From assembly GCA_016841605.1 (NCBI GenBank), contig JAENYV010000009.1, positions 111,497 through 175,496 on the forward strand: 64,000 nt of DNA. Direction: 5' to 3'. How positions within the stretch are numbered: position 1 is the first letter of the stretch; every line of letters begins with the position of its first letter. The notes below the pieces were generated by a model. The model had not been told where the DNA came from, searched no databases, and saw only the letters and a list, made by a program, of their open reading frames with translations. This DNA comes from Dethiobacter alkaliphilus. Lineage in GTDB: Bacteria > Bacillota > Dethiobacteria > DTU022 > UBA8154. A program made the translations under genes and the position numbers. Of this stretch, positions 11,404 to 23,704 are shown in pieces.

Positions 11404-12138
11404 TTATTTTTTTTGGTTTTCGTTTTCTTGATGACGAAAACAGTAACCCACTCCACGGATGGTTTCAATGAGCCGGGGGTGTGCTGCATCTTCTTCAATC
11501 TTCTGCCGTAAATAGCGGATATGCACATCCACTGTTCTTGTATCTACTTCAGTATCAAAACCCCAGATCCTTTCCAATAAAAAATCCCTCTTTAAAACCT
11601 TCCCTTTATTCGCCATTAGAATCTTGAGGAGCTCAAATTCTTTATTCGTAAGACTGATCAGCTCGTCCCGGGCAAATACTTTATATTCTTCCGGCTTTAA
11701 GGTAATTTCTCCGGCACTCAAAATTCCCGTCGACTCATCCTGTTCGATTTTTTCCGCCCGGGCTTTCCTCTCATTCCGGCGCAGATGCGCCTTGATACGG
11801 GAAAGAAGCTCCCTGACACTAAAAGGCTTGGTCACATAATCGTCTGCTCCCAATTCCAATCCAAGGACAATATCCAGTTCCTCACTCTTCGCAGTGAGCA
11901 TTATTACAGGAATATGCTCAAAACCTTCATAGGTACGCAAAGTACGACAGACCTCGTAACCGTCAATGCCTGGAAGCATTAGATCTAAAAGTATCAGATC
12001 CGGTTTGCTCTCCCGGGCAATTTTTAACGCTTGGTATCCTTCCTCGGCAGTAATAACTTTGTAACCCTGGTTTTTTAAATTAAATTTTAATAAACCTGTA
12101 ATATCCTCATCATCCTCGACAACTAATATAGTCGCCAA
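11404..12138 (-). CDS. phoP: Response regulator PhoP (OmpR family)
   Basis: Receiver domain (LILLDLMLPGIDG) plus winged helix (DTRTVDVHIRYLRQKIE). Confidence 0.9.
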   Translation of the reverse strand: MATILVVEDDEDITGLLKFNLKNQGYKVITAEEGYQALKIARESKPDLILLDLMLPGIDGYEVCRTLRTYEGFEHIPVIMLTAKSEELDIVLGLELGADDYVTKPFSVRELLSRIKAHLRRNERKARAEKIEQDESTGILSAGEITLKPEEYKVFARDELISLTNKEFELLKILMANKGKVLKRDFLLERIWGFDTEVDTRTVDVHIRYLRQKIEEDAAHPRLIETIRGVGYCFRHQENENQKK

Positions 12139-12189
12139 TTATTACCCCCCCTTTATTTTATTTAATTATTGTTTCCTATTATTCCCATA

Positions 12190-12654
12190 ATAAAAAACAA
12201 AATTTCGGGCAAGATAATGGTGTAAAGAGGTCCGCAATGGCCGTGCCAAGATTGCGGTAAGGTCAAAACGGCTTTACCGTAGTCAGCCAAAGGTTGTTAT
12301 CGGGTCAGATTTGGCTCGGTATCAGCCGGAGGGAAGATCATGTTATGTTCCTCATGGCTGCGGAATGGTCGGTAAAGATCATTCCGGGGTCAAAAAGGGA
12401 TATAGCATGGTCGAGCTAAGATCGGTATAAGTTCCTTTTCAAATAAATATTCTTCCTGTGTTAATACACAATTTGAGAATATAGAGGTCGAGGGCGGCCC
12501 AAAAAGCGGCCTTCGGCTTCCAAAGGGATTTATTCCGGTCGAGCAAAGGTTACGCCAGGTTCATAATGTGGTCTGTTGCAGTCAAAAAGATTGCAGCAGG
12601 CTACAAAAGGATCTGTCGTAGCCGGAGCATAAGGTCATTGTGGGCTTTTTTTGT
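12190..12654 (+). ncRNA. Candidate structured non-coding RNA, copy 1 (465 nt)
   Basis: Direct repeat of 12757-13221 at constant offset 567 with no indels; at least 8 local hairpins, e.g. 12361-12370/12377-12386, 12484-12494/12510-12520, 12573-12583/12589-12599; about 10 GGTC motifs; ends GGGCTTTTTTTG; no long ORF. Confidence 0.75.
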
Positions 12655-12756
12655 TTTATAGACTTTTTAATATACTTTTACTTTTTTCGTAAAAATCCTC
12701 TTTTTTAAAAATTACTCCTGACCTAAAGTTATTTAAAAAAATTGTCCTCACAATAA

Positions 12757-13221
12757 ATAAAAAACAAAATTTCGGGCAAGATAGTGGTGCAAAGGGGTCC
12801 GCAATGGCCGTGCCAAGATTGCAGTAAGGTCAAAACGGCTTTACCGCAGTCAGCCGAAGGTTGTTATCGGGTCAGATTTGGCTCGGTATCAGCCGGAGGG
12901 AAGATCATGTTATGTTCCTCATGGCTGCGGAATGGTCGGTAAAGATCATTCCGGGGTCAAAAAGGGATATAGCATGGTCGAGCTAAGATCGGTATAAGTT
13001 CCTTTTCAAATAAATATTCTTCCTGTGTTAATACACAATTTGAGAATATAGAGGTCGAGGGCGGCCCAAAAAGCGGCCTTCGGCTTCCAAAGGGATTTAT
13101 TCCGGTCGAGCAAAGGTTACGCCAGGTTCATAATGTGGTCTGTTGCAGTCAAAAAGATTGCAGCAGGCTACAAAAGGATCTGTCGTAGCCGGAGCATAAG
13201 GTCATTGTGGGCTTTTTTTGT
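12757..13221 (+). ncRNA. Candidate structured non-coding RNA, copy 2 (465 nt)
   Basis: Same as copy 1; six substitutions (all transitions), then 365 identical bases; ends GGGCTTTTTTTG. Confidence 0.75.
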
Positions 13222-13285: not shown

Positions 13286-13345
13286 TTGACAATGCTACCC
13301 TAACTGTATATAATGTCTATAAACACTATATATTTTATATACACT
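13286..13345 (+). promoter_or_regulatory. Consensus sigma-A promoter (TTGACA-17-TATAAT) with AT-rich inverted repeat operator for the GntR operon
   Basis: TTGACA 13286-13291, TATAAT 13309-13314, followed by ctatatattttatatac palindrome-like operator. Confidence 0.8.
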
Positions 13346-13375
13346 TTCAATTAATAGCCCTGATCGAGGTGAAAC

Positions 13376-22297: not shown

Positions 22298-22513
22298 TCA
22301 ATCTCCTTTATTTTTCTCCAAACCTTTAAGTTTTAATTTTTTGGCGATAATTCCTCCGATTTTTCCCGTTTCTCTGGAACTTAAACTTCCCCAGCCCTTT
22401 TCATGGATATCATCCAGGAGTCCCAGTTCCGAAGCAACTTCTTCTTTTAGTTCTTGTCTCCCCGGTCTAGGGTCCACCTTTTTCTTCTTCTTTTTCTTGC
22501 TGCTATTGCTCAT
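22298..22513 (-). CDS. Alpha/beta-type small acid-soluble spore protein-like
   Basis: LKEEVASELGLLDDIHEKGWGSLSSRETGKIGGIIAKKL resembles the SASP motif. Confidence 0.7.
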   Translation of the reverse strand: MSNSSKKKKKKKVDPRPGRQELKEEVASELGLLDDIHEKGWGSLSSRETGKIGGIIAKKLKLKGLEKNKGD

Positions 22514-22651: not shown

Positions 22652-23704
22652 CTAGCCTGCCAGGGCTATTTTCCCCTTATTTTCCGAGGTTAGCTCTCCA
22701 ACCACCGCAAAGCAGGAGAGACCCTTTTCACGGAGCAGTTGCTGAGCTTCTGCTGTTTTCTCGCCCGGTACAGCCATTAGGAGGCCACCGGATGTCTGGG
22801 GATCACAGAAGATATCCAGCAACAGGGGATCGATTTTCTCCGGTAAAAGCAAATTCGGCAGCAAGTATTCCCGGTTTGTCATCGCCCCTCCCGGCACCAG
22901 ACCCTGTTCCGCCAGATCAACGGTACCCTCAATAATAGGAATGGACTCCGGGAAAAAGACAACCCCACATTCGCTTTCCCGGATCATTTCAAAGGTGTGC
23001 CCCAGCAGTCCGAAACCGGTTATATCCGTACAGGTTTTCACGCCAATCTCCCGGGCTGCTTCAGCGGCGTCTTTGTTTAAAGTTGTCATCCAGTGGATAG
23101 CCTCCTCCAGGACAGAAGCAGGAACCATTTCTCCCTTTAGAGCCGTGGTAATAATTCCTGTTCCCAGAGGTTTCGTCAGGATTAATTTATCACCGGGTTT
23201 TACGCCCCCTTTGGTCAAAATGTCAGCCGGGGAGATGATCCCCGTCACAGAAAGACCGTATTTCGGCTCATTGTCATTAATTGTATGCCCACCGACAAGG
23301 AGGGCACCCGCTTCAGCAACCTTGTCAGCCCCTCCCCGCAAAATTTCCACAAGCACCTCCGTTCCCAGGAGTTTGCAGGGAAAACAGACGATATTCATTG
23401 CTGTCAGAGGCTTACCGCCCATGGCATAGACATCGCTCAGGGCATTGGCAGCTGCAATCTGTCCGTAATAATAGGGGTCATCCACTACAGGCGGAAAAAA
23501 ATCAACAGTCTGTATCAACGCCAGTTCATTATTAAGACGATAAACAGCCGCATCATCAGGTATTTCCGTACCGACCAGCAGGTTTTCGTCTCTTTGAACC
23601 GGTAAAAGCGGTACAATTCTGGCCAGGTCCCCCGGCCCTAGTTTAGCCGCTCACCCCGCGCTGGAGGACATAAGTGTCAGCCGAACTCTTTTATCCACGT
23701 GCAT
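22652..23704 (-). CDS. selD: Selenide, water dikinase (selenoprotein; Sec at codon 18, TGA 23651-23653)
   Basis: Reverse-strand reading from ATG 23704: MHVDKRVRLTLMSSSAGUAAKLGPGDLARIVPLLPVQRDENLLVGTEIPDDAAVYRLNNELALIQTVDFFPP..., in frame with the 22652-23518 ORF. Confidence 0.92.

Follow-up and report, generated by a model that had tools for sequence, protein, structure and literature searches.

Results

Two tandem RNA genes between phoP and a GntR/ABC operon

In the window analysed here, a stretch of 64,000 nucleotides, two direct copies of one sequence (12190-12654 and 12757-13221) sit between phoP and a GntR/ABC operon (Table 1). The two copies are offset by 567 nt and show 6 substitutions in 465 nt and no indels. 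An earlier note, made from the letters of the DNA alone, had reported these copies, and its coordinates, offset and lack of indels held exactly. Its claim that there is no substantial ORF held as well, since none longer than 52 aa exists in the gap holding both copies. What had to be corrected is the 465-nt unit: the 5' end of the duplicated block is the predicted promoter (12188-12216), and the RNA itself, which is about 430 nt long and begins about 34 nt into the block, spans approximately 12223-12652. The 5' end of copy 1 was inferred from the -10 box and is accurate to within a few nucleotides.

Two features outside the RNA deserve mention. Directly downstream of copy 2 lies a perfect sigma-A promoter (TTGACA-N17-TATAAT, 13286-13314, + strand) overlapped by an imperfect inverted repeat (13302-13346), and this region (13286-13346) is possibly an autoregulated promoter of the GntR/ABC operon. 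Farther away, the selD frame (22652-23518, - strand) seems short at its N terminus, as though an in-frame UGA (selenocysteine) codon were located upstream.

Table 1. Features of the RNA locus, with positions in the window. Arms and closing stem (P1) are given for copy 1.
Feature	Position	Strand	Description
phoP-type response regulator	11404-12138	-	divergent neighbour (context only)
Predicted -35 box, copy 1	12188-12192	+	TAATA (consensus GNATA); fixed spacing of 14 nt to -10
Predicted -10 box, copy 1	12207-12216	+	GGGCAAGATA (consensus GGNNANANTA, forespore sigma-F/sigma-G type)
Structured RNA, copy 1	12223-12652	+	ends in T7 run; closing stem and U run conserved in homologues
P1, 5' strand	12224-12242	+	pairs with 12633-12651; covarying pairs
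Arm 1	12250-12284	+	one 15-bp module, 12250-12264 / 12270-12284
Arm 2	12287-12332	+	15-bp module 12292-12306 / 12313-12327; 2-bp extension CC/GG 12287-12288 / 12331-12332
Arm 3	12336-12412	+	outer module 12336-12351 / 12397-12412; internal loop
Arm 3, inner module	12355-12370 / 12377-12392	+	opposite orientation
Arm 4	12415-12544	+	2-bp extension GC/GC 12415-12416 / 12543-12544; outer module 12420-12437 / 12523-12540
Arm 4, interior		+	variable hairpin ~12447-12481; inner 13-bp module 12484-12496 / 12507-12520
Arm 5	12548-12623	+	outer module 12548-12562 / 12609-12623; internal loop; inner module 12568-12583 / 12589-12604
P1, 3' strand	12633-12652	+	runs into T7; closing stem is the intrinsic terminator
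Predicted promoter, copy 2	12755-12783	+	AAATA 12755-12759; GGGCAAGATA 12774-12783
Structured RNA, copy 2	12790-13219	+	same fold as copy 1
SASP-like gene	22298-22513	-	71 aa; PF00269, E 5e-9; between tyrS and selD

An RNA class without a match in Rfam

Scanning the whole window against Rfam 15 (cmscan, 4227 families) gave nothing at gathering score, and around the element even a threshold of E<=10 returned only chance-level matches (E about 5-8, two of them snoRNAs). Similarly, 17 homologous loci from other genomes and genera showed no match over the RNA; the only Rfam matches in these loci were a c-di-GMP riboswitch and tRNA-Sec, both away from it. OLE, ROOL, GOLLD, HEARO, raiA, 6S, tmRNA, SRP, RNase P and T-box were all rejected for falling below Rfam gathering cut-offs. 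Several hundred nucleotides in length, with a complex covarying fold, no ORF and a stand-alone gene, the element meets the criteria for the large ornate kind of bacterial RNA. No earlier description was found in the literature searched, from which subscription journals were mostly absent, and we consider it unlikely that the class has been described elsewhere. These RNAs form a previously undescribed and widespread class, large and structured, whose members have promoter boxes and a terminator of their own.

A conserved six-way junction

The fold of copy 1 is far more stable than chance would allow, with a minimum free energy (MFE) of -230.5 kcal/mol versus -124.4 +/- 5.8 in 100 dinucleotide shuffles (z = -18.3). 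For the minus strand z is only -5.1, an asymmetry that arises because there are many G.U pairs and that points to RNA rather than DNA. In 14 members of the window's family, RNAalifold found 147 pairs, including 53 with compensatory double changes, and in 113 of 130 homologues across the phylum the unconstrained single-sequence MFE fold has a closing stem around five arms, neither more nor fewer. Covariation was measured in 72 non-redundant homologues with a G statistic, under an average-product correction that places shared ancestry in the background, against 77,902 non-structure pairs; the top covarying column pairs lie within the fold in 25/25, 49/50 and 73/75 cases. In these 72 sequences, double changes occur in 113 of 139 pairs, and 97% of cells are canonical (25% G.U). 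The conserved fold is a six-way junction, in which a closing stem holds five arms. The closing stem directly abuts the U run and therefore doubles as terminator.

The earlier note's reading of an ornate non-coding RNA held: there is no Rfam match, no coding sequence and strong covariation. The note would have been refuted by an Rfam match, a protein-coding homologue or the lack of both a transcript and covariation, and those conditions that were checked did not refute it. The stems it had read by eye held only in part, some differing from the conserved ones. CCGCAAT/ATTGCGG failed, as CCGCAATGGCC pairs instead with the 3' end (GGTCATTGTGGG); AGCCAAA/TTTGGCT is unused in the conserved fold; and GGTC-GAGCTAA-GATC, proposed as a hairpin, joins arms 3 and 4 as a junction linker. 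New relative to that note are the architecture, the forespore-type promoter, the spread across the phylum and the link to sporulation.

The view that the locus is a DNA-level element—a mobile inverted repeat or a cruciform—and not an RNA gene could draw on the tandem duplication in the window and on the several copies present in a few genomes. However, G.U pairs make up a quarter of the total and exist on one strand only, the opposite strand folds poorly, covariation runs through G.U, and searches of phages, plasmids and viral contigs gave no hit, which leaves this view all but excluded.

The junction linkers (GAGCCAAG, GGCCAAAG, GGNGGGNAG, GAGCUAAG, GAGCAAAG and NGNAGCGNAG) are strongly conserved, mostly alike, and form the most conserved unpaired part of the RNA. 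GNRA loops close arm 4 in 57/71 sequences and arm 5 in 49/71. A search for tertiary contacts in 72 sequences found no covarying pairs outside helices above phylogenetic background, and no kissing-loop pairs were found. The folds, and weak second matches ~200 nt downstream of a covariance model of arms 2-3 (R1), had suggested that the junction has a strict threefold symmetry, with 2-bp extensions on P1 and arms 2 and 4 but not on arms 1, 3 and 5. This idea was not kept: the second R1 matches map to arm 5 and to the inner hairpin of arm 4, and only the claim of a repeated module was therefore retained.

One wobble-marked helix module, repeated nine times

The nine helical segments, of 13-16 bp each, are one module of ~15 bp. 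This is apparent from 24 pairs that wobble in >60% of sequences and occupy the same positions across all nine segments: counted away from the junction, U.G is favoured at pair 3, G.U at pair 12 and U.G at pair 14. Three segments, P1 and the inner ones of arms 3 and 5, show this pattern when read from the other strand, and arm 1 has a weaker first wobble position. A U.G with a G.U nine pairs further on was counted 437 times, versus 63 +/- 37 when pair order was permuted within helices (maximum 187 in 300 permutations), and a G.U with a U.G two pairs further on 481 times, versus 145 +/- 50. Avoidance of DNA palindromes alone was rejected as the source of the wobbles, for it would not yield so fixed an arrangement. 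We infer that the fixed wobbles are a recognition or packing mark. One homologue from the same class (L074) is without the inner segment of arm 3; modules may be lost singly.

A widespread gene without a fixed neighbourhood

By blastn, the RNA is found in 14 of the 23 genomes of the window's family, one of the 14 being a partial copy, and relatives with a full copy are 72-83% identical. R1 extends this to 27/71 genomes in the order, 38/98 in the class and 116/399 in the phylum, for which 399 genomes were evenly drawn, with E-values down to 1e-26 outside the class; search filters lose weak matches. A degenerate pattern over two junction linkers matched 109 stretches in named genomes, including Moorella, Carboxydocella, Pelotomaculum, Sporotomaculum, Desulfofundulus, Desulforamulus, Tepidanaerobacter, Fervidicola, Mahella, Caloramator and Clostridium, together with many uncultured Clostridia. 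A few genomes are multicopy (loci L101, L134, L145, L119, L172, L122, L130 and L170), with two copies in UBA2598, two in tandem ~507 nt apart in Sporotomaculum syntrophicum, at least four in Pelotomaculum PtaB.Bin104 and three in Clostridia SKW182. In a 96% complete sister species in the window's genus (G003), sigG is present and no RNA is detectable, which could reflect a recent loss or an assembly gap.

In the window's family the location is stable, with phoP or other genes on one side and a selD-sirtuin-rsfS-lytR-yqeK-nadD-obgE cluster (names taken from the window's own translations) on the other. Across the phylum no neighbour is conserved and orientations are mixed: no neighbour cluster is common to more than 8 of 83 loci, and these loci share no recurrent flanking gene and no mobility gene. 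Since it has no fixed neighbour, a mixed orientation and its own terminator, the RNA acts in trans. Cis-regulation of phoP or the GntR operon was rejected, the location relative to genes not being conserved beyond the window's family, and so was a cis-regulatory riboswitch or leader, there being no in-line conserved downstream gene and the RNA having its own terminator. A mobile or viral element was likewise rejected: the RNA was not found on plasmids, phages or viral contigs and has no shared mobility neighbour.

Promoter boxes of the forespore type

Upstream of the homologues (72 aligned regions) lies a two-box element, GNATA-N14/15-GGNNANANTA, that ends ~11-17 nt before the closing stem. 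With at least 9/10 consensus positions and a spacing of 14, GNATA-N14-GGNNANANTA is present in 46/72 upstream regions versus 1.15 expected from dinucleotide shuffles. The window's copies match 8/10 positions, and its family has a weaker -35 box (TAATA, without the G). A vegetative sigma-A promoter for the RNA was rejected; sigma-A boxes occur in 29 of the same regions versus 18 expected, and the perfect TTGACA-TATAAT in the window precedes the GntR operon.

The forespore reading was prompted by consensus strings of B. subtilis, and its actual test was an internal control, the classical forespore genes encoding SASP. In the same class, GTATA-N14-NGNNATAATA precedes the start codon of these genes by a fairly constant distance, and forespore boxes at 14-15 nt spacing were found for 24/29 SASP genes, 54/72 RNAs and 6/149 other ORFs. 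In C. difficile, the boxes of sigma-F and sigma-G are reported to be very similar, with a conserved G before the -10 in sigma-F promoters and an A after it in sigma-G promoters (PMC3789822). The RNA promoters mostly carry both marks, and therefore both factors may act.

Co-occurrence with sigG and SASP genes

In the class, sigG is present in 36/38 RNA-positive versus 24/60 RNA-negative genomes (p = 1.3e-8), and in the phylum in 114/116 versus 223/283 (p = 7e-8). These statistics count genomes and not independent losses, and shared descent is ignored. The two RNA-positive genomes without sigG in the class are assemblies 69% and 82% complete; none of the remaining 36 sigG-less genomes of the class has the RNA. 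Genomes without both the RNA and sigG occur in several separate genera. Conversely, 24 genomes of the class have sigG without a detectable copy, the search filters being prone to lose weak matches. With many spore formers in this situation, the RNA is outside the universal sporulation core.

In most of the window's family the RNA has a SASP-like gene nearby; this gene, mostly convergent, lies within ~2 kb of it in nine loci of the family and adjoins it in two other lineages. The one in the window is farther away than in relatives and has the promoter GCATA-N15-GGTAACAATA, a 10/10 match. Promoter and distribution tie the RNA to the forespore, and transcription there is strongly predicted from these two lines of evidence, without transcript data. 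A vegetative housekeeping RNA whose promoter merely resembles the forespore type would fit the stable location, close to a cluster of housekeeping genes, seen in the window's family. This reading is nonetheless very unlikely, given the excess of forespore boxes (46/72 versus 1.15 expected) and the near absence of the RNA from genomes without sigG.

Discussion

Sporulation has been mapped for decades as a protein programme, and no dedicated large forespore RNA was found in the literature searched. The RNA described here is probably a part of bacterial spores that has so far gone unrecognised. The RNA, its fold and its promoter boxes are established by sequence; its expression is predicted and its role inferred. 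On balance, and by a modest margin, we favour a forespore-specific, trans-acting structural RNA that is probably a scaffold. In this reading, a stand-alone gene of ~430 nt would be transcribed in the forespore of sporulating Clostridia and give a rigid architectural RNA, in which nine near-identical helices of ~15 bp, each with a U.G wobble and a G.U nine pairs on, would present the same marked faces about one turn apart. The marks may let the helices pack together, in a compact or multimeric RNA particle, or may serve as docking sites for several copies of a single dsRNA-binding protein. Assembly of the particle would accompany spore formation, and the dormant spore would either retain it or depend on it to form. 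Against this reading are the lack of transcript data, the weaker -35 box in the window's family with only 8/10 positions in the window, and the many spore formers without a detectable copy (24 of the 60 sigG genomes in the class). In addition, the conserved unpaired linkers would also suit a binding or active site.

Two versions of the scaffold can be envisaged. By analogy with other RNAs, it is possible that the particle is RNA only, the wobbles being helix-packing sites for a tight bundle or for self-assembly. This version is supported by one wobble pattern in all nine helices, ~one helical turn apart, which resembles the along-groove packing motif of ribosomal helices, by the manner in which GOLLD, ROOL and OLE assemble, and by the GNRA loops of arms 4 and 5, which could dock. 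However, it lacks support from covarying contacts outside helices, none being above phylogenetic background, or from kissing-loop pairs. In the second version, which is also conceivable and for which there are no binding data, each ~15-bp module would bind one forespore dsRNA-binding protein, up to nine copies in all. Nine sites of one design, some of them reversed, and the missing inner segment of arm 3 in L074 are as expected for an array of sites, but no partner gene is known or linked, and the neighbouring SASP-like protein is from a DNA-binding family, for which RNA binding would be conjecture.

A different role in the forespore, as regulator or catalyst, would require either that the linkers GAGCCAAG, GGCCAAAG, GAGCUAAG and GAGCAAAG build a site for a ligand or for catalysis, or that the RNA bind ribosomes or RNA polymerase to impose dormancy. 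The nearly invariant linkers, more conserved than any other unpaired part, and the forespore promoter evidence are compatible with it. However, several near-identical linkers look architectural, little single-stranded RNA is available for antisense pairing, and nine long helices exceed the needs of a small active site. We regard both variants together as unlikely.

The scaffold reading has a bolder form, in which the endospores of many Clostridia contain an architectural RNA particle with six arms, whose nine wobble-coded helices are interchangeable. Transcribed under sigma-F/sigma-G, this RNA would pack into the spore core or organise it, either by itself or together with many copies of a single protein. 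We hold this form to be more likely wrong than right, if not by much. If it is correct, endospore formation would have its first known dedicated structural RNA. The repeated wobble-marked helix would represent a new design principle for RNA assembly or dsRNA recognition, and a part played by the RNA in sporulation would allow a direct, simple functional test.

The closest parallels are GOLLD, ROOL and OLE, which form RNA-only multimers (PMC12286853) and are alike in size (several hundred nt), dense long helices, strong covariation and absence of an ORF. OLE, moreover, was likewise found in anaerobic and extremophilic Bacillota. The main differences are that the new RNA matches none of their Rfam models, has a six-way junction of repeated modules and a forespore-type promoter, and is not found on phages or plasmids; none of the three is known to have a repeated wobble-marked module or forespore control. 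The raiA-motif RNA (ModT) of Clostridioides and other Bacillota is also a conserved structured RNA of Clostridia (PMC11706538) but differs in size and fold, the new RNA being without Rfam match. Sporulation sRNAs of Bacillus such as Bvs196, a 294-nt regulator of Bacillus velezensis expressed in sporulation (PMC9147052), have such expression in common with the new RNA, for which it is predicted, but no homology is shown and, to our knowledge, none has a comparable structure. Finally, the SASP genes (ssp) have the same forespore boxes and spacing and are neighbours of the RNA in the window's family, but they are protein-coding and share only promoter and location with it. Beside the RNA in related genera, members of one divergent SASP branch are found repeatedly.
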